From NCBI GenBank assembly GCA_028277845.1, contig JANQFL010000009.1, positions 1-64,000 on the forward strand: DNA of 64,000 nucleotides, in the 5' to 3' direction. Shown piece by piece: positions 7,186-50,442 of this stretch. This DNA is from Sneathiellales bacterium (GTDB lineage: Bacteria; Pseudomonadota; Alphaproteobacteria; JANQFL01). Each line of letters opens with the position of its first letter. Positions within the stretch are counted from its first letter, which is position 1. Under the pieces are notes generated by a model. It was not told where the DNA came from and searched no databases. It saw only the letters and a list, made by a program, of their open reading frames with translations. A program made the translations under genes and the position numbers.

Positions 7186-7196
7186 AGGAGAGACCC

Positions 7197-7517
7197 ATGT
7201 CCGTGTCCCCCGTATATCAAGTCATGACTGCGAACCGGCTGACCGATGGACTGGCCGTCTATTGCCGCAGCGACGGGTCCTGGTCGCCGGATATCGCATT
7301 GGCCGCCGGCGCCCACGACGACGCAGGCCGCGAAAAGCTGCATCTGCATGGCCAGCAATCGGCGGAGGATCATCATGTGGTTGACCCGTACTTCATCGAT
7401 GCCGTCATTGCCGACGGGCTGTTCGAACCGGTCCGGCTGCGTGAACGCATCCGGGCGTCCGGTCCGACCGTCGCCCTGGCCGCACTTCCATCGCAGGCCT
7501 ACGCCGTAGGCGACTGA
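7197..7517 (+). CDS. DUF2849 family protein
   Basis: 106 residues, starting at ATG 7197 behind AAAGGAGAG. It resembles the DUF2849 family, small proteins encoded between cysG and the sulfite reductase hemoprotein in many Alphaproteobacteria. It contains VMTANRLTDGLAVYCRSDGSW and HHVVDPYFIDAV. Its role is not established; genomic linkage points to sulfite reduction. It ends 14 bases before cysI. Confidence 0.8.
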   Translation: MSVSPVYQVMTANRLTDGLAVYCRSDGSWSPDIALAAGAHDDAGREKLHLHGQQSAEDHHVVDPYFIDAVIADGLFEPVRLRERIRASGPTVALAALPSQAYAVGD

Positions 7518-7531
7518 CCAAGAGTAAATCC

Positions 7532-9193
7532 ATGTATCAATACCGCGACATCGACCGCGACTTCGTGCGTCAACGGGTCGAGCAATTCCGCGACCAGGTC
7601 CGCCGTCGCCTGGATGGCGATCTCAGCGAAGACGAATTCAAGCCCCTGCGCCTGATGAACGGCGTGTATCTGCAACTGCATGCCTACATGCTGCGCGTCG
7701 CCATTCCCTACGGCACCCTGTCGTCGGACCAGATGCGCCGGCTGGCGCATATCGCCCGGCGCTACGACAAGGGCTTCGGACACTTCACGACGCGCCAGAA
7801 CGTGCAGTTCAACTGGCCGAAACTGATCGACATTCCGGACATCCTAGGCGAATTGGCCGATGTGGACATGCACGCCATCCAGACCAGCGGCAACTGCATC
7901 CGCAACGTCACCGCCGATCATTTCGCCGGTGTCGCCGCGGACGAAGTGGACGATCCCCGCATCTACGGCGAGATCATTCGCCAGTGGTCCACCCTGCATC
8001 CGGAGTTCACCTTCCTGCCGCGCAAATTCAAGATCGCGGTCACCGGATCGCCGGCCGACCGCGCGGCAACGCGCTTTCACGACATCGGACTCATTCTGCG
8101 CAAGGGCGGCGAGAGCGGCGACCGGATCGGATTCGAGGTGGTTGTCGGCGGCGGGCAGGGACGCACGCCCATGGTCGCCAAAACCATCCGCGACTTCGTG
8201 CCCGAGCAGGACATGCTGTCGTACCTGGAGGCGATACTGCGCGTCTACAACATGCTCGGACGGCGCGACAACAAGTACAAGGCGCGCATCAAGATCCTGC
8301 TGCACGAAACCGGTGTGGAGAAATTCACGCAACTGGTCGAGGACGAATGGCGGCACATCAAGGATGGACCGTTGGTGCTGCCGGTGGATACGGTCGCGGC
8401 CATCCGCGCCGACTTCGCGCTGCCGCCCTACCAGGACGCGGCCGCCGCGTCCGACGGGTTCGAACCCGCCCGCGTGGCGAATCCGGACTTCGACCTGTGG
8501 GTGACGCGCAACGTTCATGCCCATAAGCAACCCGGGTATGCCATCGCCACGGTATCGTTGAAGCCGGTCGGCGGCATTCCCGGCGATGCGACGGCGGAAC
8601 AGATGGATGCCGTCGCGGATCTGGCCGACCGGTTCAGCCTCGGCGAGATCCGGGTCAGCCATGAGCAGAACCTGGTGTTCGCCCATGTCCGCCGGGCCGA
8701 TTTGTTCGCCCTGTGGCAGGCGTTGCAGGCGATCGGGCTGGCGACCGCCAACGAGGGTCTGGTGTCCGACATCATCGCCTGCCCGGGCCTCGACTATTGC
8801 GCCTTGGCGAACGCCCGGTCGATTCCCGTATCGCAGCGGATCAGCAGCCTGTTCGACGATATGCGCAAGCAGCACGACATCGGCGAACTGAAGATCAAGA
8901 TCTCCGGCTGCATCAACGCCTGCGGCCATCACCATGTCGGCCATATCGGCATTCTCGGGGTCGACCGGCGCGGCACCGAGAACTATCAGATCACGCTCGG
9001 CGGAGACGCCGGACCGGATGCGAATATCGGCACGATCATCGGGCCCGGTTTCGACGACGACGGCGTCGTCGCCGCGGTGAAGACGCTGATCCACCGCTAT
9101 CTCGACATCCGCGATGACGGCGAGCGGTTCATCGACACGTTCCGCCGCGCCGGCGTGCGGCCGTTCAAGGAGGCGGTGTATGGCTCTGCTTAG
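7532..9193 (+). CDS. cysI: Sulfite reductase hemoprotein subunit
   Basis: 553 residues of the nitrite/sulfite reductase family, with two ferredoxin-like half domains and siroheme-[4Fe-4S] domains. The cluster cysteines are C417, C423, C460 and C464 (CPGLDYC and SGCINACGHHH), the standard arrangement. GHFTTRQNVQFNW and SGNCIRNVTADHF are family signatures. Context (siroheme synthase before, DUF934 after) supports assimilatory sulfite reduction to sulfide rather than nitrite reduction. No flavoprotein CysJ is adjacent, so electrons probably come from ferredoxin or another reductase. Confidence 0.9.
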   Translation: MYQYRDIDRDFVRQRVEQFRDQVRRRLDGDLSEDEFKPLRLMNGVYLQLHAYMLRVAIPYGTLSSDQMRRLAHIARRYDKGFGHFTTRQNVQFNWPKLIDIPDILGELADVDMHAIQTSGNCIRNVTADHFAGVAADEVDDPRIYGEIIRQWSTLHPEFTFLPRKFKIAVTGSPADRAATRFHDIGLILRKGGESGDRIGFEVVVGGGQGRTPMVAKTIRDFVPEQDMLSYLEAILRVYNMLGRRDNKYKARIKILLHETGVEKFTQLVEDEWRHIKDGPLVLPVDTVAAIRADFALPPYQDAAAASDGFEPARVANPDFDLWVTRNVHAHKQPGYAIATVSLKPVGGIPGDATAEQMDAVADLADRFSLGEIRVSHEQNLVFAHVRRADLFALWQALQAIGLATANEGLVSDIIACPGLDYCALANARSIPVSQRISSLFDDMRKQHDIGELKIKISGCINACGHHHVGHIGILGVDRRGTENYQITLGGDAGPDANIGTIIGPGFDDDGVVAAVKTLIHRYLDIRDDGERFIDTFRRAGVRPFKEAVYGSA

Positions 9194-9635
9194 GAACGGC
9201 CGGTTGGCGGACGACCCGTGGATCCAGATTTCCGGCGAAAGTCCGGTGCCCGAAGGCGAACCCGTCATTCTCGACTACGAACGCTGGCTCGAGGAAAAGG
9301 ACCGGCTGGACGGCCGCAACGCACCGCTCGGCGTGCGGCTGGCGAGCGACCAGCCGCCCAGCCTGATCGCCGACGATCTCGCCCGGTTTTCCCTGGTGGC
9401 CCTGGAGTTCCCCAAATTCGCCGACGGGCGGGCCTATTCCTACGCCCGCCTGCTGCGGGAACGATTGGGCTTTGCCGGTGAATTGCGCGCCGTCGGCAAC
9501 GTTCTCAGGGACCAGTTCGTCTTCATGGAACGGTGCGGATTCGACGCCTTGGAGGTGCACGGCGGTGATCCCGAGGCCGCCTATGCCGCGGCCAAGGGTG
9601 AAATCACACACCAATACCAGCCGACGGGCGATTGA
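9180..9635 (+). CDS. DUF934 family protein
   Basis: 151 residues, starting at ATG 9180 and overlapping the end of cysI by 14 bases, with AAGGAGG upstream. DUF934 (COG3749) proteins are regularly encoded beside cysI and cysH and are annotated as oxidoreductase-related. Family features here are the GVRLASDQPP, FADGRAYSYARLLRERLGF and GNVLRDQFVFMERCGFD segments. It closes the operon. In many relatives cysH follows, but here the next gene is on the other strand. Confidence 0.85.
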   Translation: MALLRNGRLADDPWIQISGESPVPEGEPVILDYERWLEEKDRLDGRNAPLGVRLASDQPPSLIADDLARFSLVALEFPKFADGRAYSYARLLRERLGFAGELRAVGNVLRDQFVFMERCGFDALEVHGGDPEAAYAAAKGEITHQYQPTGD

Positions 9636-34401: not shown

Positions 34402-36183
34402 TCAGCGTGCCCGCGTCCGTTCGGTGGCGGCGGCATCGACGGTCAAATCGTCGCCGATGACGACGCCGTAATCGGCCAATGCCTGTTCGCGCGTCAGATA
34501 CCCGTCGAGCACGTCTTCCAATACCAGGGCCGGATCCCGTTCGCGCGGGTCACCGTATCCGCCGCCGCAAGGGCCGACCACTTCGATGCGGTCGCCGGCC
34601 CGGGTCGCCAGGTTGGGCAGCTTGGACGGCAGGCCCCGTTCGTTGCCCCGTTGCGGACGGAAACTCATGCGGGCCGTCTCGCCGTCGCGGCCACCGGCGA
34701 AACCCCATGGGGCATAGACATGGCCTTCGCCTTCGACCGAGACACCGCCGTCCTCGAGGAATTCAACCTCGCGTACCGAACCGATGCCGCCGCGCCAGCG
34801 GCCCGGCGGACAGGCATCGTCGCGCAGCTCATAGCGCCGCACCCGTAGCGGTAGGTGGGATTCGGTGTCCTCGATGGGATTGTTGCGGGTGTTGGCATAG
34901 AGCGTATCGACGGCATCCATGCCGTCCTTGCCCGGCCGGCCGCCATAGCAGCCTTCGTGGATTTCCATGTGCACCCAGTGCTCCTCGCCGCGCAGGCCGC
35001 TGAAGGCGACCACGTGCAGATTGCCGACACCGGCGCTGACTTTGTCCGGGACTGCCTGGGCCAGCGCCTTCATCAACGTATCGGCGGCCTGGTTGCCGGT
35101 GCAGAACCGGGCGATGGTCGGCGCCGGGAAGACCGGGTTCACCAGTGTTCCCTCGGGCGCGATGATGGTGATCGGCCGGGTCATGCCGCTGTTCTGCGGC
35201 ACATGGCCGTGGATGGCCGAATCCAGCAGGATCGATTTCAGCGTCAGCCAGACGGCGCAGTCGGTGGTACCTTCGAGGGGCATGTTGATCGGCCGGTCGG
35301 CGACCTGGGCCGCCGTGCCGGTGAAATCGACGGTCACGTCGCTGCCGTCGACCGTCACCGTGACCGTGATCGGCAGATCGCGCCGCGCCGCATCCTCGCT
35401 GTCGGTGAAGCCGTCGATGTGGGTGGTTGCCGAATAGGACCCGTCGGGCATGTCGGCGATGGCCTGGTGCATCAGGCGTTCGGAATGATCCATCATGAAG
35501 TCGGCGGCGGCGGAGATGGTCGCGGGGCCGTAGCGGTCGAGCAGATCGACCAGACGGTCGGCGCCGATACGGGCGGCGGCGATCTGGGCGTCCATGTCGC
35601 CGACCACCAGGTCGGAGGCGCGGATGTTGTCGCGCAGCATCTGCCACAGGGCCTCGTTGCGGCGGCCGCCCTCGACGATTTTCAAGGCGAGGAACTGCAA
35701 ACCTTCCGCGTAGGCGTCGATGGCGTCGACGATGCCGCAACTGCCCGGCGTCAAGGCCCCTATATCGAGGTGATGCGCCGTGGTGACGGAGAAGCCGACC
35801 AAATCACCGGCGTGGAATACGGGCACGCAAAACGCCACGTCGGGACCATGGCTGGCGCCGTGATAGGCCGAGTTGTGGATGATCACGTCACCCGGGGCGA
35901 AGTCGTCGCCACGCTCGGCGAAGATGCGCTTGATGCCGGCGACGTAGCCGGGGATGGGTCCCGATTGCAGCGGCGTGCTTTGCGGCGTCTCGGCGATCTG
36001 GCGGCCCTCGGCGTCGGTCAGGGCGGCGCCGAAATCCTCCGATTCGCGGATGATGCTGGAATAGGACATGCGCATCAGCTTGTGTCCCATCTCCACGGCG
36101 ATGTTCTCCAGCGCCCCTTGTATGACGCTCGCCGTGACCGGGTCGATGGTGCCATTGGCGGTCTTGTCGGCCGTTGCCGTCAT
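34402..36183 (-). CDS. Hydantoinase B/oxoprolinase family protein
   Basis: 593 residues of the HyuB family: [33 protein letters not shown] and [17 protein letters not shown]. It forms an ATP-dependent amidohydrolase or carboxylase with HyuA. Its ATG overlaps the hyuA-type stop by four bases (ATGA at 36183..36180). Members include 5-oxoprolinase, N-methylhydantoinase and acetone/acetophenone carboxylase subunits. The exact substrate cannot be read here; no third carboxylase subunit is adjacent. Confidence 0.88.
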
Positions 36184-38261
36184 GGCGTGTCTCCTTTGCT
36201 CAGAACCATGTTGCCGCCGCTGACGACAGTAGCGCGCCAGCCCGGCGGCACGACGGTGGTGGTGTCGTGCTGCAGGATCACCGCCGGCCCTTCGATGGCC
36301 GTGCCCATGCCCAGGACGTCACGGCGGTAGAACCCGGTCTCCAGTTCGCGCAATTGATCGCCGACGCGGAACGTGCAGGCGCCGCGGCGCACCAGGGCAT
36401 CCTTGGCGGTGCCCGTTCCGGCCGTGTCCTGGCGGCCGATCTTCGGCATGCGGCCCAGACCGGTGACGCGGATGTTGACGATTTCAATGGCATTATCGGG
36501 AAAGGCGTGGCCGTACTCGGCCTCGTGCCGGGCCGTGAAGGTCGCCCAGACGGCGTCGAGCTTGGCGCCGTCAAGTTGGCCCTCGGGTACGGCGACACGC
36601 AATTCGTAGCCTTGCCCGACATAACGCAGATCGCCGGTGCGCTGGACATCGACCGCGTCCGGGTCCAATCCGTCGGCGGAATATTGCGCCAGCAGCGCCG
36701 ATTCCAGTTCGGCGAAATCACGATTGAGCCGGTCAAGATCGACGGAACCGCTGATTTGGAACGCGGTCTTCAGAAGATCGTATTTGAGATCCGTCGTCAG
36801 CAAGCCGGCTGCCGAAGTGATGCCGGGATAGGGTGGGATGACCACTTCGGGAATGCTCAGCGCCGCGGCCACTTCGGCGCCGTGCAGCGGTCCCGCGCCA
36901 CCGAAGGCGACCAGCGTGAAATCCCGCGGATCGAGGCCCTTCTGAATGGTGCGCGCGCGGATCGCATTGGCCATGTTGGCGTTGACGATGGTCAGCACAC
37001 CCTCCGCCGTGTCGATCTCGCTCATGCCCAGCCTATCGGCCAGCGAGGCGATGGCGGTGCGGGCGGCCGCTTCGTCCAGGGTCATTTCGCCGCCGAGGAA
37101 ATTGCCCGAATCGAGGCGGCCCAGAACGACGTTGGCGTCGCTGACCGTGGGTTCGGTGCCGCCTCTGCCGTACGCCGCCGGCCCAGGCTGGGAACCGGCG
37201 CTGCGCGGACCGACCCGGAAGGCGCCGCCGCTGTCGACATGGGCGATCGAGCCGCCGCCCGCGCCGATGGTGGTGATATCGATCATCGGCACCAATACGG
37301 GAAACCCGCCGATCCAGGTATCGCGCGCCGTCGACTCGCTGTAACGGCCATCGACGATCAAACCGATGTCGGCGCTGGTGCCGCCGACATCGAAGGTGAT
37401 GAGGTTGCGCCGTTCGGTATCGCCGGTCGCCGACCAATGTCCGCCGAGCACGCCGGCGGCGGGGCCGGACAGCAGCGTGACAACCGGTTTTTCCGCCACC
37501 ATGTCGGCCGTGGCGACGCCGCCGTGCGAACCCATGATATGAAGATCGGCACCCAATCCGGCCTGTGTCAGCTCGCCGCCCAAGTCGCCGATATAGCTGC
37601 GCACCTTGGGGCCGATGAAGGCGTTCATGGCGGCGGTGGTGAAGCGTTCGAATTCGCGGAACTGCGGTGCCACCGACGACGACGTGGTGACGAACGCCTC
37701 GGGGTATTCCTCGAGAATGATTTCCTTGGCCCGGTCCTCGTGGCTCGGGTCGATATAGGAAAACAACAGGCAGACGGCGATGGACTGCACGCCGGCCCGG
37801 CGCAGCTCGCGTACGGCCTCGCGGACGCCGGCCTCGTCGAGCGGCTCGATCACCTCACCCGTCGGCGGCACGCGGCGTTCGCGCACGACCTTGCGGTGGC
37901 GCCGCCGGATCAGCGGCCGGTGCTGCCAGGGAATGTCCTGCATGATGGAGTAGTTCTGCGGCCGCTGATGGCGGCCGATGTGCAGCAGGTCGCGGAACCC
38001 TTCGTTGGTGATCATGCCGGTCACGGCGCCGTCGTGTTCGAGCACCGCGTTGGTGGCGATGGTGGTGCCGTGGAAGACGTGCCCGACCTGGTCCGGGGCG
38101 AGGCCGTTGCGGCGGCAAAGTTCGCCGATCCCTTGCACGACGCCGCGGGAGGGGTCGCCCGGCGTGGTCGGGGTCTTGTGGGTGTGAGTCGCGCCTGAAG
38201 AGGTGTCCGTGTAGACAATGTCGGTGAAAGTGCCGCCCACATCGACGCCGATCAAACGCAT
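36180..38261 (-). CDS. Hydantoinase A/oxoprolinase family protein
   Basis: 693 residues from ATG 38261, with GGGAGGGAGG just upstream. Actin-like ATPase signature [15 protein letters not shown] at the N-terminus, then [29 protein letters not shown] and [14 protein letters not shown], the HyuA/OplA N and A domains. ATP activates the amide or carbonyl substrate that HyuB works on. First gene of the pair, followed by hyuB and perhaps the quinone-reductase-like gene. Confidence 0.9.
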
Positions 38262-38486
38262 GTGCCTCCCTCCCTTCACGACTCGAACGCCTCGATTCGG
38301 CGTCTATTCGGCGCCACCAATGGCGCAAGGACCCTGCCCGACGATAGTGCTTGAAGCTCTGCCCGATAGTGTTCTCTTGGTCACTCAATCCATATGGATC
38401 GTATCCAATTCACACGACTATGAGAATAGAGTCACAGAAAGGGTCGTTCCGCGGCGCGGCGTAGGTTTGGCGGCCATGAATTGCAA

Positions 38487-38538: not shown

Positions 38539-39525
38539 TCAGCGTGTCTTGCGGCGGCGCGCAGCCATGCCAATCCCGAGAATCGCGAGACCGATACCGT
38601 ACACACCGAGCGATGCCGGTTCCGGGACATCGACGAAGCACGGCGGCTGGTTGGGTCCGCCGCACGTTCCGAATGTGGTGCTGCCGATGGTGGACGACAC
38701 CGCCGCGTTGGAAAACGCGGTATTGACCGTACCGTGATAGGCAACGGGCGTCAGCGTCTGGCCGTTGGGCTGAACTCCCGCCGGTGCATAACTGGGCGAT
38801 GAATTGTCCCAAATGCACTGGTCCCCGGAACCGCACGGGAACGTCCCAACCCCTCCATTGTAAAGGGCGGAGTTCTGGTCGACGATCGCAACGCCAGGGT
38901 TGAGCGTTCCTTGGAAGAGATTGATGTTGATGGCCGCATTGATGTTGTTGATGCCGCTTACATATGCGTCGTGATCGGTGCCGAGAAGCAAGCCGCCGCC
39001 GCGTGCGGTCATTTCGGTTGCGTAGCCTTGGATCCAAGCCGTTTCATTGTTCCAGGCGGAAGAAATGATCCGGCCGTCCGCAATGAGGTTCTGGTTGGTC
39101 GCGGTCAGACTGTTGTACCACGCGCCGATATTGTTGTAGTTCGCGACTTGCGTGGCGTTGGTCTGCGCGCCCATACCCGCCGTGTACAGGTCGTAAACCC
39201 AGACCTGATCGAAGTTCGAATAATCGTTGTAAACGGCATCGCTGAGGTTGCGGATAGTGACATTGTAACCCGGCAACGCGTTCACATACCCGGCGATCTC
39301 ATTTCCATCTGCATGGTACACATGGCCCGTGTTCAACACGTGCGCGAACAGAATCTCAACCGCGTTGCCGGGTGAAGATACCGTGAGGGTCCCGAATACG
39401 ATGAGCGAATGCGCCGCGTACTTTCGAACGCGCGACCACGTTGACGCAAGTTTGGACTTCAAGCGTTCCACGACTCCCTCCCAGGATCGAAACGCGACAT
39501 GTTTTGCCGCTATGTTTTGAGTCAT
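38539..39525 (-). CDS. Secreted PEP-CTERM domain protein
   Basis: About 328 residues from ATG 39525, or 310 from GTG 39471, which has GGGAGG five bases upstream and gives a more normal signal peptide. Hydrophobic AAHSLIVFGTLTVSS ends at a likely cleavage after GNA. The body is rich in Asn, Thr and Gly with few Lys, as in surface proteins, and has no domain I know. The C-terminus VPEPAS, a hydrophobic stretch and AARRRKTR is the PEP-CTERM sorting signal, recognised by exosortase/EpsH and linked to exopolysaccharide. No exosortase gene is in the window. Confidence 0.85.
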   Translation of the reverse strand: MTQNIAAKHVAFRSWEGVVERLKSKLASTWSRVRKYAAHSLIVFGTLTVSSPGNAVEILFAHVLNTGHVYHADGNEIAGYVNALPGYNVTIRNLSDAVYNDYSNFDQVWVYDLYTAGMGAQTNATQVANYNNIGAWYNSLTATNQNLIADGRIISSAWNNETAWIQGYATEMTARGGGLLLGTDHDAYVSGINNINAAININLFQGTLNPGVAIVDQNSALYNGGVGTFPCGSGDQCIWDNSSPSYAPAGVQPNGQTLTPVAYHGTVNTAFSNAAVSSTIGSTTFGTCGGPNQPPCFVDVPEPASLGVYGIGLAILGIGMAARRRKTR

Positions 39526-39789
39526 TGAGAAGCAACATCCGTGCCGGGAAGGGAAAAGTCCGTGTTCCCAAAGTTTTACACGGGAACGCGTATTGCGTCT
39601 AAACAACTCCTGTAAGAATTCTCGACACTTCGGCGTTGACGGATCGGCGTCCGTGGCGCCGTAAATGAGAAAAAGTCATGTAATATCAATAGGTTGGCTT
39701 CAAACTGAGCATCCTTGGGAGTGTAAGAGATACCGACGCGTTGGCGGATACCGCCGCAGGTCCGCCCTCGGCGGGGCGCAACACTTCGC

Positions 39790-41493: not shown

Positions 41494-43326
41494 CTAGTCG
41501 ACGATGTGATAGACCGGCGCCTTTTCCATCTCGTATTCGCCGGATTCGGGATCGCGGCGGGACACGGTCAGAACATGCCAGTTTTCGTCGTCCAGCTTCA
41601 TGTGGTCACCCCGGTAATAGTAGCCGGGCCAGCGGGTTTCCTTGCGGAACAAGGTGTGCTGGGTGACGCACTCGGACGCGATGGCCCGGTGCTTCAATTC
41701 CCAGGCGCGCTGCAGCTGGTGCAGGTCCTCGGCGCCGATGCACTGCAGGTCCTCCTGCAGGGTCTTCAGCAGGTGCAGGCCGCGCAGCAGCAGCTTTTCG
41801 TTGGTCATGTAGTTGACACTGATACCGCCGACATACTCGTCCATGATCTTCTCGAGCCGCTGCAGGCCGTGGATCGGTAGGATGTAGTTGGGCGAAACGG
41901 TGCCGCCGACGATCTCGTTGCGGTAGGTCTCGTAGTGCTCCATCGGCTGGTAGACTTCCTGCCGGAGACCGTTGATCTGCTTGTCGGTGACCTGGACCTT
42001 GTCCTTGTCGTGGTCGCGGATGAACTTGACCGCGGCCTTGGCGGCCAGCCGGCCCTCGGTGAACGAGCCCGACGAAAACGCGTGCGCCGTGCCGCCCAGG
42101 GCGTCACCGGCGCCGAACAGGCCGTCGACCGTCATCATACGGTTGTAGCCCCAGAAATACTCGTCGGGCGACAGGTCTTCCGGTCCGCTGGCCCAGGCGC
42201 CCGAGCAGGTGGCGTGGGAGCCCATGACATAGGGTTCCGACGTGGTCAGCTCGGGATTGATGTACTTGGGATCGATGTCCTGGGACGCCCAGACCACGGC
42301 CTGGCCGACGGTCATGCCGAGGAAGTTTTCCCAGCCCACCATTTCCTTGTGCGGGTCCTGGAAGGCTTCCTTGGTCACCATGTGGATGGGACCGCGGCCG
42401 GCCTTGACCTCCTCGATGAAGGCGTGGTTGCGCAGGCACGTGGGCGTCGGGTGGTGATCGATATACTCCCCGACGAGTTCCTTGGTGTTCTCGTACCAGG
42501 TCTTTTCGTAGTCCTCGCCATAGGCGTTCTGGGTGTAGGTCTTGAGGTGCAGGAAATACGCGCCGACCGGGCCGTAGCCGTCCTTGAAGCGGCACAGCAC
42601 GATGCGGTTTTCCATCTGGGTCATCTTGGCGCCGGCCATGATCGGCAGCGCATACGCCGACGCGCTGCTCCATGGTGCATACCAGGTGCGGCCCATGCCT
42701 TCACCGACCGAGCGGGGCTTGAAGATGTGCGACGCCCCGCCGGCGCCGACGATCACCGCCTTGGCGCGGAACACGTGGAAGTCGCCGGTGCGGACGTTGA
42801 AGCCGACGGCGCCGCCAACCCGGTTGGGCTGGTTCTCGTCCATCAGCAGATGGGTCACCATGATCCGGTTGTAGATCTTGTCGGCGGCCTTGCGCGCCGC
42901 CTCGGCGACGATCGGCTTGTAGCTCTCGCCGTGGATCATGATCTGCCACTTGCCTTCGCGCTGGTACCGGCCGGTTTCCGGATCGCGCATGAACGGCAGG
43001 CCCCATTCCTCGAACTTGTGGACCGTGCTGTCCACGTGGCGGGCCATGTCGTAGGCCAGATCCTCGCGCACCATGCCCATCAGGTCGTTGCGTGCGTAGT
43101 GCACGTGGTCCTCGGGCTGGTTCTCGTCCCACTGCATGCCCATGTAGCAGTTGATGGCATACAGGCCCTGGGCGACCGCGCCACTGCGGTCGATGTTGGC
43201 TTTCTCGGCGACGACGATTTTCAGATCGCGTCCCCAGTACCGCGCCTCGTAGGCGGCCCCGGTGCCTCCCATGCCCCCGCCGACGACGAGGATATCGCAG
43301 TCTTCGTATACGGTTTTGCGCGCCAT
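41494..43326 (-). CDS. aprA: Adenylylsulfate reductase alpha subunit
   Basis: 610 residues. FAD flavoprotein of the fumarate-reductase superfamily: DILVVGGGMGGTGAAYEARYWG (FAD loop) and DRSGAVAQGLYAINCYMG, with the SHATCSGAWASGPEDLSPDEY segment typical of AprA. It interconverts APS and sulfite plus AMP. Linkage to aprM rather than to qmo or dsr genes resembles the aprMBA arrangement of sulfur oxidisers. The oxidative direction (sulfite to APS) is inferred; no sat gene is in the window. Its ATG shares one base with the aprB stop. Confidence 0.93.
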   Translation of the reverse strand: MARKTVYEDCDILVVGGGMGGTGAAYEARYWGRDLKIVVAEKANIDRSGAVAQGLYAINCYMGMQWDENQPEDHVHYARNDLMGMVREDLAYDMARHVDSTVHKFEEWGLPFMRDPETGRYQREGKWQIMIHGESYKPIVAEAARKAADKIYNRIMVTHLLMDENQPNRVGGAVGFNVRTGDFHVFRAKAVIVGAGGASHIFKPRSVGEGMGRTWYAPWSSASAYALPIMAGAKMTQMENRIVLCRFKDGYGPVGAYFLHLKTYTQNAYGEDYEKTWYENTKELVGEYIDHHPTPTCLRNHAFIEEVKAGRGPIHMVTKEAFQDPHKEMVGWENFLGMTVGQAVVWASQDIDPKYINPELTTSEPYVMGSHATCSGAWASGPEDLSPDEYFWGYNRMMTVDGLFGAGDALGGTAHAFSSGSFTEGRLAAKAAVKFIRDHDKDKVQVTDKQINGLRQEVYQPMEHYETYRNEIVGGTVSPNYILPIHGLQRLEKIMDEYVGGISVNYMTNEKLLLRGLHLLKTLQEDLQCIGAEDLHQLQRAWELKHRAIASECVTQHTLFRKETRWPGYYYRGDHMKLDDENWHVLTVSRRDPESGEYEMEKAPVYHIVD

Positions 43327-43796
43327 CAGTAATATACGCCCTGTTTGAATTTGCTTTTATCGATGACCGGCAGGCCGGTATCGACGTTGAGAGCATCCGG
43401 TTCGTAACACAGAAGCTGGTTGTTCAGATCTTCCTCGGCAGGCGCCGCGAGCTCGGCGAGATTGGGTATCTTTTCGCCCCACGGCTGGGTGGTTATGGGC
43501 GAGACGAAATCCTTCACCCGGCCGTCGCGGAACTTGATCTTCCAGGAGATGGTGCCCTTCTCCTCCTCGCGCAGCACGCGGACGCTATGGCCCAATGGCG
43601 CGAAGTCGGCATAGCCGCGGCAATCGATGGCGTTCTGCGGACAGGCCTTCACGCAGGAATAACATTCCCAGCACATGTTGGGTTCGATGTTCACGGCGCG
43701 CCGGTAGGTCTTGTCGATATGCATGATATCGGACGGACAGATGTCGACGCAGTGCCCGCAGCCATCACATCGGGTCATGTAAACGAAAGTCGGCAT
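43326..43796 (-). CDS. aprB: Adenylylsulfate reductase beta subunit
   Basis: 156 residues. Two [4Fe-4S] clusters are bound by CDGCGHCVDICPSD and CWECYSCVKACPQNAID, followed by the AprB-specific beta domain (VRVLREEEKGTISWKIKFRD) and a tail that wraps AprA (LNVDTGLPVIDKSKFKQ). It carries electrons between the FAD of AprA and the membrane partner. AGGAGG lies ten bases before ATG 43796. Confidence 0.94.
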   Translation of the reverse strand: MPTFVYMTRCDGCGHCVDICPSDIMHIDKTYRRAVNIEPNMCWECYSCVKACPQNAIDCRGYADFAPLGHSVRVLREEEKGTISWKIKFRDGRVKDFVSPITTQPWGEKIPNLAELAAPAEEDLNNQLLCYEPDALNVDTGLPVIDKSKFKQGVYY

Positions 43797-43839
43797 GGCA
43801 CCTTTTCCTCCTGATCGGTTTTTATATGCGGGCTGAGCC

Positions 43840-44634
43840 TTAGTAGTGGCGGGGCAGTTCGCGCTTGATGCCGAGCCCGAACTGCTCCGGCGCGTCGGCC
43901 GGCGCCGGCAGGTTCTCCCGCGAGCCGTCCGCCTTGATGATGCGCTTCTGGTATGCCGCGGCCGGCTTGAAGAACATGTGCGCGAATTTCGACCACAGGA
44001 CGCCGCCGAACAGCACCGTGCTGGCGATAATGAACAGAGCCAGGAACAGCGTCGTCAGGCCCCCGGCGCCGGCCGCCTGCAACACGGCCCAAATCAGGCC
44101 GAACGTCGTCGTGGCGAGCAGCGACAGGATGAACAAATCGGCGCGTACGACGCGGTACCAGGGGTTGCCCTCGGCGGCGACATCGACGCGGATGAAGAAC
44201 CAGAACCAGTAGCCGCCGAAGCACACCATCAGCGCGCCGAGATACCAAAGCGCCGTCACGATGCCCGGTGCGGGCCGCTCAGGGGTCGCATAGGTGAACA
44301 CCAGGGAAATGGTCATCACGATGAACAGGATGAACCCGTACATGGTGAACAGATGCGAGACCCGGCGGCGCGGATTGCAGAACTCGGCCGAAGTCAGGAC
44401 ATCTTCCGCAACGGTTCTGACGGCGATGCCCACCTTTTCTCCGCCGCCCAGTTCGCGTTCCCGGTTGGCCTGGGCTTTCTTGGAATTTTCGAAGAAGTAC
44501 TTGGCGCTTTTCTTGTGGATCATGTCCAGCACCGTGCCGCCTACGACGAGGATCAGCATCAGGATGACGTAGGCCTGCATGAAGCCCAACGGAATGACGG
44601 TCGCAAGCTCGGCAAACGGATTGCTGGTGAACAT
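43840..44634 (-). CDS. aprM: AprM-like membrane anchor of APS reductase
   Basis: 264 residues. About five to six hydrophobic segments (near 13-35, 92-112, 125-147, 164-185, 190-212), with a cytoplasmic loop after the first. It heads aprMBA, behind GGAGGGGG. AprM is proposed to connect AprBA to the quinone pool in phototrophic and other sulfur oxidisers. It shows some resemblance to heterodisulfide-reductase/QmoC-type membrane domains, and a few histidines could bind heme. Assignment relies mainly on position. Confidence 0.8.
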   Translation of the reverse strand: MFTSNPFAELATVIPLGFMQAYVILMLILVVGGTVLDMIHKKSAKYFFENSKKAQANRERELGGGEKVGIAVRTVAEDVLTSAEFCNPRRRVSHLFTMYGFILFIVMTISLVFTYATPERPAPGIVTALWYLGALMVCFGGYWFWFFIRVDVAAEGNPWYRVVRADLFILSLLATTTFGLIWAVLQAAGAGGLTTLFLALFIIASTVLFGGVLWSKFAHMFFKPAAAYQKRIIKADGSRENLPAPADAPEQFGLGIKRELPRHY

Positions 44635-44984
44635 CTATCCCCCTCCCATATCGAACGATGATTTTGTTGTAAGAGATGTTCGAGATCGCTGTGTATTAGG
44701 TTTTGATCATATAATAGATTTCGAATATTTCAACACTGACAGCTTGTGGTTTCCGGTGATAGTGCCACGTCGGCAATATGCGATGAGCCAGGCTCTCCCA
44801 AGAACCGAAGGAAAACGCCGGGTATCCAAGCATCTCCGGGTTCGCCAGTGCCGCGCGTTCAATTTTCCGGGCCCAACAGGCAGCGTCAAAATACCGCACT
44901 TTTTGTACGGTCTTTCGCTTGACGACTCGCGGGCAGGTCACCCGTGACGCGTCGCGCCGCGGCCGAAATAGCGTGCAAGCTGTC
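44635..44984. promoter_or_regulatory. aprM leader and 350-base gap
   Basis: Holds the minus-strand promoter of aprMBA. The part at 44690-44745 is AT-rich, with TTGAAATATTCGAA and TATTATATGATC on the minus strand. A short minus-strand frame (44696-44941) lacks a recognised domain or ribosome site, so I do not call it a gene. No exact ATTC-N8-GAAT site of the SqrR/BigR type was found. Confidence 0.4.
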
Positions 44985-45731
44985 TTAGCTCTTGCGGAAT
45001 ACCGTGGCCGCCAGCCAGCCGGAGAACAGGGCGATGATGATGGCGGCGACGCCGTAGAAGAAGGGCTGGTCGTGGGCGAAATCGAAGATTTCCCGCTCCA
45101 CGCCGCTCTTGGCGATGAACAGGGGCGTCGATTGCGCCGCCACGACCACGTCGTCGTTCACCAGGTAGACCTGAATGGTGTAGGTGCCGACCGGGACGTT
45201 GGCCGGGAAGGTCAACTGGGTGTGGAACAGGCTGCGGCCGAGGAACGTGACATTGCCCACGTCCTCCTGAAACAGGCCGACATTGAGCCGGTCGCGGACC
45301 AGCGCTTCCTTGTAGGGCAGGACATCGGTTTCGTCGATATCGCCCCGAGCCTTCACGGTTAGGTTCTCGGCCCCGATCTGCAGTAGCGAGCGCAGGGAGT
45401 GGGAGGTGACCTGCTGGATTTCCTCGTTGGCGTACACCGAGTAGAAGCCGGGAACGCCGTCGAAGGTGATCGAGTCCGTATTGACCCAGATGCCGGCCTT
45501 GCGCGCCTTGCGCCGCACCACGACCGGCACTTCCGGGCCGCGGATGACGATGATGACGTCGCCCGGCTGGTCGATCTTGCCGAACAGCACCAGTTCCGTG
45601 CCGGTGAAGTTGGAGGTGATGGATATCAGGTTGGAGGACACGCCCGTGAGCAGGGCCTGGGCCTTGGCCCCTGTGGTGGCCGCGGCCATGGCCAGTACCA
45701 GGAAAACGCCTATGAGAGTTCCGCGTCTCAT
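44985..45731 (-). CDS. TIGR02186 family periplasmic/membrane protein
   Basis: 248 residues. N-terminal signal peptide (LIGVFLVLAMAAATTGAKA), a beta-rich periplasmic body with FTGTELVLFGKID and VIVIRGPEVPVVVRRKARKAG, and one C-terminal membrane helix (about 222-243) ending FRKS. This matches the TIGR02186 family, which is regularly encoded next to a TauE/SafE exporter. The biochemical role is unknown; a partner of the exporter is likely. It starts three bases after the exporter stop. Confidence 0.85.
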   Translation of the reverse strand: MRRGTLIGVFLVLAMAAATTGAKAQALLTGVSSNLISITSNFTGTELVLFGKIDQPGDVIIVIRGPEVPVVVRRKARKAGIWVNTDSITFDGVPGFYSVYANEEIQQVTSHSLRSLLQIGAENLTVKARGDIDETDVLPYKEALVRDRLNVGLFQEDVGNVTFLGRSLFHTQLTFPANVPVGTYTIQVYLVNDDVVVAAQSTPLFIAKSGVEREIFDFAHDQPFFYGVAAIIIALFSGWLAATVFRKS

Positions 45732-45734
45732 GGC

Positions 45735-46655
45735 TCAGTGTCCGATCGCGGTGCCGACCGCGTACAGGCTTTCGGGGGTGGCCACCAGATCGTAGGCCAG
45801 CTTGACGCAGACGCCCAGGACCATCAGGGCCAACAGCCCGCGCAACTGCTCGCCGCGCAGCTTGACGCCCACCCGGGTGCCGAACTGCGCGCCGATCACC
45901 GCGCCGGCCAGCAGCAGGATGGCCAGCACCACGTCCACCGTCTGGGTGTTGATGGAGTGCAGCAGCGTGACGTTGGCGGTGACGAAGATGATCTGGAACA
46001 GCGACGTGCCCACGACCACGGACGTCGGCATGCCCAGCAGGTAGATCATCGCCGGCACCATGACGAAGCCGCCGCCGACGCCCATGATGGCCGACAGAAT
46101 GCCGACAAAGAAGCCGATCATCAGCGGCAGGAACGCGCTGATGTAAAGCTTCGACTTGCGGAACCGCATCTTGAAGGGCAGGCCGTGCATCCAGGTGTGC
46201 TGGTGCAGCTTGCGCTTGGGGCGCTTGCCCGTGTGGCGGCGGATCAGGGCCCGGGTCGACTCCCACAGCATCAATGAACCGATGATGCCGAGGAACACGA
46301 CGTAGCTCAGCGAGATGACCAGGTCGATCTGGCCCACCTCGCGCAATACCTTGAACAGCCAGGCGCCCAGGCTGGATCCGAAGAAGCCGCCGACCAGCAA
46401 CACCGTGCCCATCTTGAAGTCCACATTACCCCTGCGCCAGTGGGCGAGGACGCCGGAAACCGACGAGGCGACGATCTGGTTGGCCTCGGTCGCCACAGCC
46501 ACCGGCGGCGGGATGCCGATGAAGATCAGCAGCGGCGTCATCAGAAAACCGCCGCCCACCCCGAACATGCCGGACAGAAAGCCAACCCCCCCGCCCATGG
46601 CGAACAGCAAAAAGATGCTGACCGACATTTCTGCGATGGGAAGGTATATCTGCAT
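45735..46655 (-). CDS. TauE/SafE-family sulfite or sulfonate exporter
   Basis: 306 residues. Eight or so hydrophobic segments in two halves, each with a glycine-rich motif: GFLSGMFGVGGGFLMTPLL and GILSAIMGVGGGFVMVPAM. These are TauE/SafE signatures. Proteins of this family export sulfite, sulfoacetate or related sulfur anions. With TIGR02186 behind it and aprMBA downstream, sulfite or another sulfur anion is the likely cargo. Start ATG 46655. Confidence 0.9.
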   Translation of the reverse strand: MQIYLPIAEMSVSIFLLFAMGGGVGFLSGMFGVGGGFLMTPLLIFIGIPPPVAVATEANQIVASSVSGVLAHWRRGNVDFKMGTVLLVGGFFGSSLGAWLFKVLREVGQIDLVISLSYVVFLGIIGSLMLWESTRALIRRHTGKRPKRKLHQHTWMHGLPFKMRFRKSKLYISAFLPLMIGFFVGILSAIMGVGGGFVMVPAMIYLLGMPTSVVVGTSLFQIIFVTANVTLLHSINTQTVDVVLAILLLAGAVIGAQFGTRVGVKLRGEQLRGLLALMVLGVCVKLAYDLVATPESLYAVGTAIGH

Positions 46656-46740
46656 GTGTTGGCGACAGTGCCGGAGGTTGGGTGATAAAGCCTAAATTAC
46701 GCGGCCACGGGACGGTCACGAAAAATAGGCGCTAAGTGTT

Positions 46741-46758
46741 ATGAAACCATTGATACAT
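46741..46758. promoter_or_regulatory. Candidate operator upstream of the TauE gene
   Basis: ATGAAACCATTGATACAT is an imperfect palindrome (12 of 18 positions symmetric) between the TauE gene start and the end of the arsR-type gene. It is a possible site for the ArsR-family repressor. By-eye call with low certainty. Confidence 0.25.
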
Positions 46759-46826
46759 TAGCGATCTCTAACAGACAAGGTGCCAGACGGCCAAGATCGG
46801 CTGGACAGGGCGGCACTTTGTCCGAT

Positions 46827-47195
46827 TCATACTTCGGCCAGGGCCAAACCGGGGTCCAGTCCTTCACCGCAATACACCTGATGCAACGTACCGATGACTC
46901 TGGCGACTTTTTCACACGCCAGGGAATAGAACGCGGTTTGCGACTGGCGCCGCACCCGCACGAGGTCGTCCGCCCGCAACCGGGCCAGATGCTGGGATAC
47001 GGCGGACTGGCTGAGACCGACAAGGCCGGACAGTTCGCCGACCGTGCGTTCGCCCCCGTAGATATGGCAAAGCAGTATCAGGCGTTTTTCGTTGGCCATC
47101 GCACGCATCAGCCGCGCCGCTTCCGCCGCGCTGCATTGCAGATCCATCAGCCTGGCCGATGCCGCGCCGGCGTCGCCGGAAAGGTCGGTGTGCAT
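46827..47195 (-). CDS. ArsR repressor of BigR/SqrR (persulfide-sensing) type
   Basis: 122 residues from ATG 47195. Winged-helix ArsR domain with AMANEKRLILLCHIYGGER, LVGLSQSAVSQHLARLR (recognition helix) and RRQSQTAFYSL. Cysteines fall at 43 and 109, 66 residues apart, the same spacing as the reactive pairs of SqrR (C41/C107) and BigR (C42/C108), which sense sulfide/persulfide; C21 and C94 are extra. The classical ELCVCDL metal site of ArsR is absent. It follows dctM by 17 bases, so it is probably transcribed with the TRAP genes, and it precedes the TauE/apr genes, which it may regulate. Confidence 0.87.
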   Translation of the reverse strand: MHTDLSGDAGAASARLMDLQCSAAEAARLMRAMANEKRLILLCHIYGGERTVGELSGLVGLSQSAVSQHLARLRADDLVRVRRQSQTAFYSLACEKVARVIGTLHQVYCGEGLDPGLALAEV

Positions 47196-47212
47196 ATGCC
47201 TCGGATGGGTGT

Positions 47213-48544
47213 TTATGGGATCAGCCCCGTGTTGAACAGGTCGGGCAGGAACAGCGATATCCAAGGAATAAAGACGATCAAGGCCAGCCGGACGATGTCG
47301 GCGCACCAGAACGGCGTCACGCCGCGGAAGATTTTGCCGGTGGAAATATCGGGCAGAACACTGCGCAGGACAAAGACGTTCAATCCCACCGGTGGGGTGA
47401 TCAGGCTGATTTCCGTCACCACCACGACGATGATGCCGAACCAGATCAACACCACCTCGGGCGACAGGATGCCGCCGAAATCCAGGCTGAGGATCATCGG
47501 GTAGAACACCGGCACGGTCAGCAGGATCATCGACAGGCTTTCCAGCACGCAACCCAGGATCAGGTAAATCACCAGCAAGAGCAGCACGACGATGACGGGG
47601 GACAGGTTGAAGCCGGTCACCCATTCGGTCAGCGCATCGGGCATGCCGGCGACATTGATGAAGTTGGAGAACATCAGGGCGCCGATCAGCACGGTGAAGA
47701 TCATCGCCGTGGTCCGGGCGCTTTCGATCAGGACGTCGATCAGCACCTTGACGGTCAGGGTGCGGCGCGCCAGGGCGAAGGCGAACGCGCCGGCGGCGCC
47801 GATGCCGGCCGCTTCGGTGGGCGTGAAGATGCCGCCGTAAATGCCGCCCATGACGATGACGAACAGGGTCAGCACGCCCCACACGCCCTTCAGCGCCATC
47901 ATGCGGCCGGCCCAGTCCGTGCGTTCGCCGGGCGGGCCGGCGTCGGGATTGATGGCGGTGGTCACCGAAACGGCGCCGAGATAGCAGAGGATGCCGAGGA
48001 TGCCGGGCAGGACGCCGGCGGCGAACAGCATGCCGATGTCGGTCTCGGTCATGATGCCGTAAATGACCAGGATGACGCTGGGCGGAATCAGGATGCCCAA
48101 GGTGCCGCCGGCGGCGACGGACCCCGCCGCCAAACTGTCGGAATAGCCGAACCGGCGCATGGACGGCATGGCCACCTTGGACATGGTGGCGGCGGTTGCC
48201 AGGCTCGAGCCGCACACGGCGCTGAAGCCGCCGCAGGCGACGATGGTGGCCATGGCCAGACCGCCGCGGCGGTGGCCGAGAAAGGCGTTGGACGCGGTGT
48301 ACAGTTCTTCCGACAGGCCGGCCCGGGTGACGAAATTGCCCATCAATACGAACAGCGGCACCACGGACAGGCTGTAGGCCAGCCCGGTTTCGTAGGTCAC
48401 GTTGGCGACCATGGCGAAGGCCGGGCCGAAGTCGATCAACAGGGCGAAGCCGAAGAACCCCACCAGGCCCATGGCGAACGCGATGGGCATGCGAAGCGCG
48501 ATCAGTGCCAGCAGCACCGCAAATCCGATCAACGATTCTTGCAT
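47213..48544 (-). CDS. dctM: TRAP transporter large permease (DctM)
   Basis: 443 residues with about twelve hydrophobic segments of the DctM/ion-transporter superfamily: ALRMPIAFAMGLVG, AVCGSSLATAATM and AAGGTLGILIPPSVILVIYG (conserved permease loop), and EISLITPPVGLNVFVL near the end. It drives Na+-coupled uptake with DctQ and DctP. It starts nine bases after dctQ. Confidence 0.93.
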   Translation of the reverse strand: MQESLIGFAVLLALIALRMPIAFAMGLVGFFGFALLIDFGPAFAMVANVTYETGLAYSLSVVPLFVLMGNFVTRAGLSEELYTASNAFLGHRRGGLAMATIVACGGFSAVCGSSLATAATMSKVAMPSMRRFGYSDSLAAGSVAAGGTLGILIPPSVILVIYGIMTETDIGMLFAAGVLPGILGILCYLGAVSVTTAINPDAGPPGERTDWAGRMMALKGVWGVLTLFVIVMGGIYGGIFTPTEAAGIGAAGAFAFALARRTLTVKVLIDVLIESARTTAMIFTVLIGALMFSNFINVAGMPDALTEWVTGFNLSPVIVVLLLLVIYLILGCVLESLSMILLTVPVFYPMILSLDFGGILSPEVVLIWFGIIVVVVTEISLITPPVGLNVFVLRSVLPDISTGKIFRGVTPFWCADIVRLALIVFIPWISLFLPDLFNTGLIP

Positions 48545-48553
48545 GGGGGTCTC

Positions 48554-49078
48554 TTAGGCCGGTGTGTTGTTTGATCGCAGGAACGTCGTCACGGTCAGCA
48601 TCGCGAGTACGACGGTGGTGGCGGCCGACATGATCACCATGAAGTAGGTCATCGGCCACATGGGAATGTTGAGGATGGCGGTGACATCGCCGTATTCGAC
48701 GGTTTCGGCGGCCTTGACGGACAGCCGCCAGGTGATGGCGCCCATCATGACGGCGCAGAACAGGTGCATCATGCCGTCCCGCGGGCGCCGCATCATCGAC
48801 GGGATAAAATGATCGAACAGGTCGATGGTGACATGTTCCTTGCGCGCGGTCACCAGCGGCAGACCGGCGAAGATCAGCGTCGCCATCATCATTTCGGTAA
48901 TTTCGAAACCGCCGGGGACGGGCAACGAGAACAGGTAGCGGCCGATGACGTCGACGAACGTCAACATCATCATGAAGAACAGAACGACGGCCGCCAAAAT
49001 GCCGAGCGACCGGCTGAGCCACTGGCTCAACCGGTCGTCCGAACCGTTCTGATGGGTATCAGTAAGCCCTTCGCTCAC
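48554..49078 (-). CDS. dctQ: TRAP transporter small permease (DctQ)
   Basis: 174 residues with four hydrophobic segments and the DctQ pattern (DVIGRYLF, GFEITEMMMATLIFAGLPLVTARKEH shortened core ITEMMMATLIF, VDLF-like TIDLFDHF). The start is GTG 49078, overlapping the dctP stop as GTGA. Inner-membrane partner of DctM. Confidence 0.88.
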   Translation of the reverse strand: MSEGLTDTHQNGSDDRLSQWLSRSLGILAAVVLFFMMMLTFVDVIGRYLFSLPVPGGFEITEMMMATLIFAGLPLVTARKEHVTIDLFDHFIPSMMRRPRDGMMHLFCAVMMGAITWRLSVKAAETVEYGDVTAILNIPMWPMTYFMVIMSAATTVVLAMLTVTTFLRSNNTPA

Positions 49079-50109
49079 TGACCGCTTTCGACCTTCTTCA
49101 CTTCGGCGCGCAGCTCGGTCAGCAGCCCGGCGGCGTCAAGGCCCTTCTTCGAAGCGGCGGCAACCCACTTGGCTTCGATCGGGTCGGTCACTTCCTTGAC
49201 CTCCCGCAGCAGGGTCTTGCTGGCATTGATGATTTCGATGCCGTCGGCCTTCATGGCGGCGACGCCGGCGGCGTCGGCGTCATCCCAGCCCTTGCCGGCG
49301 ATGCGCGAGAAGTTTTCGCCCGATGCCCGCATGACGGCGTCCTGATCTTCCGGAGACAGTCCGGCGAACTTCTTCGGGTTCATGACCAGGAAGAAACTGG
49401 TGTTGTACAGGCCGCCGGGAATGAAGGTGGCGTACTTGACCAGCTTGGTCAGCTTGAAGGACTTGATCGATTCCTTGGGGAAGAACACGCCGTCGGCCAC
49501 GCCGTTGGCCAGCAGTTCGTGCGACTTCGGCGCCGGCTTCAGCAGCGCGGTGGCGCCGATGGCCTTGGTGATGTCGTTGATCACGCCGCCGCCGACACGG
49601 ATTTTCAGGCCCTTGAGGTTATCCAGCGTGGTGATGGCGATCTTGCGGTTGTACATCGCGCCCGGACCGTGGGTGAACACGCCCAGGACCTGCACGCCCT
49701 TGTGTTCGTTGTATTTTTCCAGGTGCTTCTTGTACATCCGCCAGTACGCGACCGAGGTGGCGACGGCGCTGTCGCCGAGGAACGGCAGTTCGACCGCCTT
49801 GGTCAGCAGGAAACGTCCCGGCTGATAGCCGTGCACGCCGTACGTCACGTCGGCGATGCCGTCCTTCGCCAGGTCGAAGTGTGCCGGCGGCTTGCCCAGC
49901 GCCTTCGGCAAGATCTTGATCTTGACGTTGCCCTTGCTTTCCTTCTCGACCGCCGCGATCCATGGCTTGATCATATTGGCGACGATCGGATGCGTCGGCG
50001 GAAGCCACGACGACAAGGTCAGGGTCGTGGCCGCTTGGCCGGTGCTGGTCACTGCGAGCGCAGAAACGGCAATGGCGCCGGCGGCGACTGACTTAAACAA
50101 AGTTCTCAT
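49075..50109 (-). CDS. dctP: TRAP substrate-binding protein (DctP)
   Basis: 344 residues with a signal peptide (about 1-27, SALAVTSTGQA). Periplasmic DctP-family receptor: LSSWLPPTHPI at the mature start, LKGLKIRVGG with the conserved carboxylate-binding Arg, and ANGVADGVFFPKESIKSF. The ligand is an organic acid. Closeness to sulfur genes makes a sulfonate possible, but the sequence alone cannot decide. First gene of dctPQM, probably followed by arsR. Confidence 0.9.
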   Translation of the reverse strand: MRTLFKSVAAGAIAVSALAVTSTGQAATTLTLSSWLPPTHPIVANMIKPWIAAVEKESKGNVKIKILPKALGKPPAHFDLAKDGIADVTYGVHGYQPGRFLLTKAVELPFLGDSAVATSVAYWRMYKKHLEKYNEHKGVQVLGVFTHGPGAMYNRKIAITTLDNLKGLKIRVGGGVINDITKAIGATALLKPAPKSHELLANGVADGVFFPKESIKSFKLTKLVKYATFIPGGLYNTSFFLVMNPKKFAGLSPEDQDAVMRASGENFSRIAGKGWDDADAAGVAAMKADGIEIINASKTLLREVKEVTDPIEAKWVAAASKKGLDAAGLLTELRAEVKKVESGQ

Positions 50110-50413
50110 GTGTCAATATCCTCCCCATTTGACATGGTCTTGCGCTTGACCCGGATTTCCGTCGAGGCAACACCCAGCGCTGCTATTTTAGTATTATCGT
50201 GCTGGATTACCAGTATTTCGGTTTTACGTCCCCTTGTCCGGTGGGTGGTGGTCACTCTCCCGGGCTTATCTCCCTGGGTTACCCCAAGATGATGATGTGA
50301 AAACAAGTGTTATCACGACGGGATGCGGGGTGCCACAAGCTTACGCGGCGTAAACGTGATCCTGTCTTTTTGTTCGCGCGCCAATGACCCTACGGAAATT
50401 ACCACGAGTCAGG
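50110..50413. other. Intergenic region between dctP and merR
   Basis: No gene. It must carry the leftward dctP promoter. A 5'-TTTTAGTATTATCG-type AT-rich patch lies near 50186-50200. No riboswitch or terminator was recognised. Confidence 0.4.
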
Positions 50414-50442
50414 TTGACGTTTACGTCAACGTCAACTACATT
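50414..50442 (+). promoter_or_regulatory. Palindromic operator and promoter of the merR-type gene
   Basis: TTGACGTTTACGTCAA (50414-50429) is a palindrome with 7-base arms and a 2-base centre, followed by an overlapping half site CGTCAAC. TTGACG serves as a -35, with TACATT (50437-50442) 17 bases on as -10, so the operator covers the -35 and spacer as MerR-family sites do. It resembles the LiuR-type operators of branched-chain/fatty-acid degradation genes. Confidence 0.65.

Follow-up and report, generated by a model that had tools for sequence, protein, structure and literature searches.

Based on family searches, an AprA tree and surveys of gene neighbourhoods, it was concluded that the aprMBA genes in a 64,000-nucleotide stretch of a Sneathiellales bacterium genome (the window) quite probably encode the step by which a versatile sulfur-oxidising alphaproteobacterium oxidises sulfite, next to a probable operon for sulfite export. 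The cluster is transcribed from the minus strand in the order dctP, dctQ, dctM, arsR, tauE, TIGR02186, aprM, aprB and aprA, and each gene name was backed by family searches except that of aprM, which has no Pfam family. An initial annotation, made from the letters of the DNA, had placed aprMBA, tauE, TIGR02186, an ArsR repressor and the genes of a tripartite ATP-independent periplasmic (TRAP) transporter on one strand, had taken the AprM-type linkage as a sign of sulfite oxidation to adenosine 5'-phosphosulfate (APS), and had seen in TauE/TIGR02186 a way to expel sulfite. All of these genes were found on the minus strand, the oxidative assignment was borne out by the lineage I type of AprA and AprB, the upstream aprM and the tree, and TauE/TIGR02186 appeared, by analogy, to be a probable export route.

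Identity and origin of aprMBA and its pathway context

The AprA protein scored 997 bits against the equivalog TIGR02061 (cut-off 642) and AprB scored 191 bits against TIGR02060 (cut-off 136), with PF12139 also matched. AprA aligned over its full length with the A. fulgidus protein (1jnr/2fja) and kept W234, R265, H398 and N74 (A. fulgidus numbering), which we take to be residues of the flavin adenine dinucleotide (FAD)/APS site. Five transmembrane (TM) segments were predicted for AprM, and its similarity to QmoC/TcuB in the family search was weak. The gene lies directly upstream of aprB on the same strand, a position taken by aprM homologues in 79 of 80 related loci, and its product presumably couples AprBA to the membrane. 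The rule that joins lineage I APS reductase to aprM has been published (PMC2211403), and the position and TM criteria for aprM are also found in PMC3779200.

A tree of 58 AprA proteins was evaluated by Shimodaira–Hasegawa-like approximate likelihood ratio test (SH-aLRT) supports. The split between lineages I and II was supported at 100, with the window AprA on the aprM-linked side and the second AprA of the same genome on the other. The window protein fell among gammaproteobacterial sulfur oxidisers and SAR11 (SH-aLRT 100 for this clade). Copies from Thiogranum and Hydrogenophilales and Thioglobus-like ones were its nearest relatives (support 93), and it did not join most of the other alphaproteobacterial AprA proteins, among them those of genomes G028, G335, G287 and G365. 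Identities to the ten nearest gammaproteobacterial copies were 85–91% for AprB and 58–72% for AprM, as against 66–77% and 53–62%, respectively, to other alphaproteobacterial copies. The simplest reading of these comparisons is that aprMBA was acquired from a donor of gammaproteobacterial type, and the lineage I genes are best read as oxidising sulfite with adenosine monophosphate (AMP) to APS.

The initial annotation had noticed no sat, qmo, dsr or sox gene. This held for the window, whereas in the whole source assembly (124 contigs, 98.5% complete, 0.9% contamination) sat, dsr and sox genes were all present; only the lack of qmoC persisted, as none was found genome-wide over the cut-off. The genes dsrA and dsrB were found over their cut-offs, followed by dsrE, dsrF, dsrH, dsrC, dsrM, dsrK and a dsrL-like gene. 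SoxB was over its cut-off elsewhere, and sox-like and sHdr-like genes were read by eye around soxB. The Mo-co dimer domain of a SorA/SoxC-type sulfite dehydrogenase was not found in the genome. The genome search for sat and sulfite-releasing enzymes that the initial annotation had suggested returned two sat genes and, on another contig, Xsc (TIGR03457, 971 bits, over the cut-off). The Sat of contig C64 was 72–73% identical to the Sat encoded beside aprMBA in G028 and G335, while that of contig C96, which has a cysC-like neighbour, was just 32% identical to the C64 protein; judged by identity, the C64 Sat is the counterpart of the aprMBA-adjacent Sat of the relatives and the C96 Sat is not. A second aprBA, of lineage II type, was located on contig C69 (L011:5591-7967), with no aprM or qmo nearby and a YkgJ-like gene following.

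The possibility that the contigs with dsr, sox, sat and xsc had been mis-binned was considered and rejected, because their tetranucleotide signatures matched the window (r 0.96–0.98) as well as parts of the window matched each other (0.94–0.96); the values against other alphaproteobacteria were 0.86–0.91. Since dsr, sox, sat and sHdr-like genes occur in the same genome, the window aprMBA would represent one step of a complete sulfur-oxidation pathway, and the compact stand-alone module for sulfite detoxification or organosulfonates suggested by the initial annotation was left unsupported. It was also observed that contigs C22 (L115:3626-19353) and C77 (L106:2676-10854) carry sox-like genes, a cluster of sHdr-like genes that includes one for a lipoate-binding-like protein, and a reverse dsr set that is nearly complete. 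To our knowledge, reverse Dsr and sHdr are uncommon within one genome. Their co-occurrence has been reported from marine-sediment genomes (PMC12345210).

Among the closest described systems is the sat-aprMBA operon of Allochromatium vinosum (PMC3779200), which shares the aprM-aprB-aprA order, a five-TM AprM, a lineage I AprA and a Sat in the genome. It differs in that sat lies on another contig in the genome of the window, where tauE-TIGR02186 and an ArsR gene precede aprMBA.

The tauE and TIGR02186 pair and its linkage to apr genes

The TauE protein matched PF01925 with 187 bits and had seven TM segments by simple hydropathy, in line with the multiple TM helices expected of the family. By analogy it probably exports sulfite, since TauE is named as an exporter of sHdr-made sulfite during sulfur oxidation in a study on Hyphomicrobium denitrificans (PMC12423496). 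The TIGR02186 protein scored 258 bits against PF09608, over the cut-off, and fell under the stricter NCBIfam TIGR02186 cut-off (216 against 255 bits). Its AlphaFold2 model (mean predicted local distance difference test score, pLDDT, 86) comprised a beta-rich domain, predicted to be periplasmic and membrane-anchored, between an initial signal helix and a TM helix at the C-terminus. A fold search with this model gave no significant solved match (best E 1.7e-3; TM-scores 0.2–0.3 by query length), and the fold is therefore described as beta-rich, perhaps immunoglobulin-like, at most.

Among 385 alphaproteobacterial genomes, tauE homologues (E <= 1e-50) were recorded in 252 and TIGR02186 in about two thirds of those sampled. 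TIGR02186 directly followed tauE in all 30 best loci sampled by tauE, and tauE was directly upstream in 28 of 30 loci sampled by TIGR02186; a BigR/SqrR-type ArsR gene stood just upstream of tauE in 15 of the 30 best tauE loci, the window included. Because the pairing is nearly constant, we infer that TIGR02186 may be a periplasmic partner of the TauE exporter. A literature search for TIGR02186 or Alph_Pro_TM together with TauE found nothing. The arsR-tauE-TIGR02186 set is common far beyond apr and must therefore be regarded as a widespread module, mostly unrelated to apr. At three loci (L120, L125 and L133) it is divergent from merR, and in two of them fatty-acid genes resembling those that flank the window cluster lie behind it. 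The window keeps the merR/arsR-tauE-TIGR02186 order, with dctPQM between merR and arsR and aprMBA after TIGR02186.

Further, the linkage of apr genes to tauE was examined. The AprA survey of public genomes consisted mostly of SAR11 and gammaproteobacteria, and class-wide alphaproteobacterial searches were added. The 385 genomes included 22 with aprA, 19 of them lineage I, in 11 families; in 4 of these families (7 of the 19 genomes), tauE was no more than 10 kb away from the lineage I aprA. Various gene orders were recorded: tauE-TIGR02186-usp-aprM-aprB-aprA-sat in G287 and G365, which is the window order plus sat; sat-aprMBA-tauE-TIGR02186 in G335; sat and aprMBA divergent from tauE-TIGR02186 in G028; and, at almost every SAR11 locus examined, aprMBA-small gene-tauE. 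The conservation in relatives on which the initial annotation had staked its reading held for apr-tauE-TIGR02186 and arsR-tauE-TIGR02186 and failed for the TRAP genes. With the window left out, 3 of 10 families remained, a result with a probability of ~2.5e-5 by simple binomial at a 0.6% chance per family, a figure that is understated because the small SAR11 genome makes the true one somewhat larger, though still small. As the gene orders differ and the apr genes sit on different branches of the tree, the pairing was probably assembled several times independently. Such repetition, far above chance, supports a functional link in which sulfite is oxidised and its excess exported, and it is the chief argument for that link.

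Several small genes were noted at these loci. A usp-like gene lies between TIGR02186 and aprM in G365 (L160:8259-8744) and G287 (L161:6963-7481), a tusA-like gene adjoins TIGR02186 in G028 (L008:14475-14693) and G335 (L158:13486-13761), and the SAR11 gene between aprA and tauE encodes 116 amino acids (L148:10860-11210). The SAR11 (Pelagibacter) aprBA has been proposed to serve sulfite detoxification (PMC5069961). The SAR11 loci resemble the window in pairing aprMBA with a close tauE, which is downstream there and upstream in the window; P. ubique is without sat, whereas the window genome has the full oxidative pathway.

The ArsR regulator and the TRAP transporter

The arsR reading frame was initially set at 46827-47120; the ATG at 47195 is a likelier start, giving a protein of 122 amino acids whose gene begins 17 bp after dctM. 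Cys43 and Cys109, 66 residues apart, took the same alignment positions as the cysteines that HlyU and SqrR carry in alpha 2 and in the C-terminal helix. A pair with the same spacing, Cys50 and Cys116, was described as the sulfane-sulfur sensor in the 2025 Hyphomicrobium study (PMC12423496). The assignment as a BigR/SqrR-type repressor in the initial annotation was thus upheld at the level of type: the window protein shares with BigR and SqrR the winged-helix ArsR family and the cysteine spacing, and its classification as a putative sulfur sensor of the SqrR/BigR/sHdrR type is supported. However, it scored 67.1 bits against the NCBIfam BigR model (cut-off 155), so it should not be named BigR, and persulfide sensing is putative here. 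The sHdrR/SoxR regulon of H. denitrificans likewise involves two-cysteine ArsR repressors in a sulfur-oxidising alphaproteobacterium; the portion of that work available (PMC12423496) mentions no apr genes, whereas arsR, tauE and aprMBA are neighbours in the window.

All three TRAP proteins, DctM, DctQ and DctP, were over their Pfam cut-offs. By phmmer, DctP matched 4p56 (E 1e-98) and 7nr2 (1e-51), then 5iga, 5i5p and 7nqg, all aligned over the full length; these proteins are presumably binders of mandelate or other aromatic acids. At E <= 1e-90, DctP homologues occurred in just 4 of 384 other genomes (46–51% identity), two of them (L167 and L169) directly behind an acyl-CoA-ligase-like gene. 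No dctPQM block stood beside any other apr or tauE locus examined, and no aromatic pathway was recognised next to dctPQM in the window. The likeness of DctP to TarPQM-type aromatic-acid transporters (PMC3610893) consists of this homology to presumed aromatic-acid binders.

The sulfonate import proposed by the initial annotation did not find backing in these neighbourhoods. TRAP proteins for sulfonates exist, and the isethionate-binding IseP holds the sulfonate between Arg156 and Arg177 (PMC11668362). DctP belongs to the same family, and IseP was not named among its 60 solved relatives listed. By eye, in alignments with proteins other than IseP, DctP carries an H-x-P-G motif where two-arginine sulfonate/sialate binders have an arginine, and only the second clamp arginine seems present. 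A sulfonate ligand is possible, though without support here, and the transporter is probably not part of the sulfur function. With a gap of only 17 bp, dctPQM and arsR may well be transcribed together.

Proposed scheme, rival explanations and layout of the locus

The gene content, the family memberships, the cysteine pair, the conserved linkage and the remaining pathway genes elsewhere in the genome were observed, and from them we infer the direction of flux, the exported substrate, the regulation and the TRAP ligand as follows. Sulfite would arise in the cytoplasm through reverse Dsr and sHdr, and perhaps also when Xsc cleaves a product of sulfonate breakdown. AprBA would oxidise it with AMP to APS, the electrons passing via AprM to the quinone pool, and a Sat encoded on another contig would convert APS to sulfate and adenosine triphosphate (ATP). 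Excess sulfite would be released by TauE and its membrane-anchored periplasmic partner TIGR02186. The two-cysteine ArsR would repress its neighbours, tauE foremost, and would let go once its cysteines become linked through reactive sulfur. The TRAP genes were probably inserted upstream of arsR and may serve import of an organic, likely aromatic, acid. A more far-reaching version, in which the alphaproteobacterial TauE sulfite exporter has two parts and needs TIGR02186 as its periplasmic subunit, AprMBA has been wired to that valve repeatedly and independently, and the window adds control by a sulfur-sensing ArsR that has also captured a TRAP transporter, is put forward tentatively and is considered rather unlikely in full.

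Several results weigh against a sulfite-oxidation step coupled to export. In the window sat is not adjacent to aprMBA, unlike in the sat-aprMBA operon; the assembly, in 124 contigs, has draft status; 12 of the 19 lineage I genomes had no tauE within ~10 kb of aprA, although some contigs were too short for a judgement; no SqrR-like box (ATTC-N8-GAAT) was found in the gaps of the cluster, where the only strong palindrome lies near merR; and, because of the 350-bp gap between them, TIGR02186 and aprM need not share a transcript. The same gap, together with the spread of arsR-tauE-TIGR02186 outside apr genomes (252 of 385 for tauE against 22 for aprA) and the uniqueness of the TRAP genes to this locus, could also be explained by a chance neighbourhood of three independent units, TRAP, arsR-tauE-TIGR02186 and aprMBA, without a functional link. 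This was regarded as improbable, as 4 of the 11 families have tauE near their lineage I aprA, across several orders and different AprA branches, and the count without the window, weaker yet still small in probability when SAR11 is allowed for, points the same way.

A dedicated organosulfonate module, in which a sulfonate taken up by the TRAP transporter is broken down with release of sulfite, and AprMBA, TauE and TIGR02186 handle that sulfite under ArsR, would account for xsc in the genome and for dctPQM running in the direction of arsR 17 bp away, and it has precedents in sulfonate TRAP proteins (PMC11668362) and in taurine degraders that use AprAB-Sat (PMC10356861). It was judged quite improbable: xsc sits on a different contig, nothing in the 64 kb was recognised by eye as a desulfonating gene, the TRAP genes are missing from all other apr or tauE neighbourhoods examined, and the ligase-like neighbours of close DctP relatives, the H-x-P-G motif and the nearest solved relatives (4p56, 7nr2 and 5iga) point elsewhere. 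The opposite direction of AprBA, from APS to sulfite as in sulfate reducers, could be entertained with a reversible enzyme and dsrABCMK in the genome. This was rejected as highly improbable, since lineage I with aprM, dsrEFH and the dsrL-like gene are marks of the oxidative pathway, the genome also has sox and sHdr-like genes, and the tree puts AprA among sulfur oxidisers.

The features of the locus are collected in Table 1. The 350-bp gap upstream of aprM likely holds an aprMBA promoter, as indicated by its length and lower GC (guanine plus cytosine) fraction. The gap between arsR and tauE showed no clear palindrome; the palindrome GTTGACGTTGACGTAAACGTCAAC at 50413..50436, between merR and dctP, resembles a LiuR operator. 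Elsewhere in the window, a cysG-like gene, a cysI-type sulfite reductase gene (NIR_SIR) and a further small gene at 5758-9635 probably form an assimilatory sulfite reduction cluster, ~32 kb from aprMBA. The protein encoded at 38539-39606 ends in VPEPASLGVYGIGLAILGIGMAARRRKTR, a PEP-CTERM-type sorting signal. A hydantoinase B/A-like gene pair lies at 34402-38279, and a similar hydantoinase A-like gene was seen on the xsc contig (L107:16502-18571).

Table 1. Features of the aprMBA cluster and adjoining gaps, with window positions
Feature	Position	Strand	Basis
aprA, dissimilatory APS reductase alpha subunit (lineage I)	41494..43326	-	TIGR02061, 1jnr/2fja match, tree
aprB, APS reductase beta subunit, 1-base overlap with aprA	43326..43796	-	TIGR02060, PF12139
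aprM, five-TM membrane protein	43840..44634	-	position and homology, TM prediction, weak QmoC/TcuB similarity
350-bp intergenic region	44635..44984	-	gap length, GC 0.53 vs 0.63
TIGR02186 / Alph_Pro_TM	44985..45731	-	PF09608, AlphaFold2 model, tandem with tauE
tauE, TauE/SafE-family exporter	45735..46655	-	PF01925; 3 bp from TIGR02186
arsR, SqrR/BigR/HlyU-type repressor, Cys43 and Cys109	46827..47195	-	family search, alignment, start re-set
dctM, TRAP large permease	47213..48544	-	PF06808 / TIGR00786
dctQ, TRAP small permease	48554..49078	-	PF04290
dctP, TRAP solute-binding protein	49075..50109	-	PF03480; nearest solved relative 4p56
Palindrome GTTGACGTTGACGTAAACGTCAAC in merR-dctP gap	50413..50436	.	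gap palindrome search

A literature search for aprBA or aprM with TauE returned co-mentions and, in the portions of text available, no gene linkage. The parts are known, and as far as found in these sources the apr-exporter combination has not been described as a linkage. The novelty is modest and consists of this recurrent linkage and of TIGR02186 as a near-constant partner of TauE. Sulfite is toxic and stands at a branch point of sulfur oxidation. If the link between apr and TauE (TIGR02186), from SAR11 to larger alphaproteobacteria, is true, these cells would balance the energy gained from sulfite against its leakage, which would bear on sulfite release in seawater and sediments, and the linkage would point to a function for TIGR02186, a common family of unknown role.

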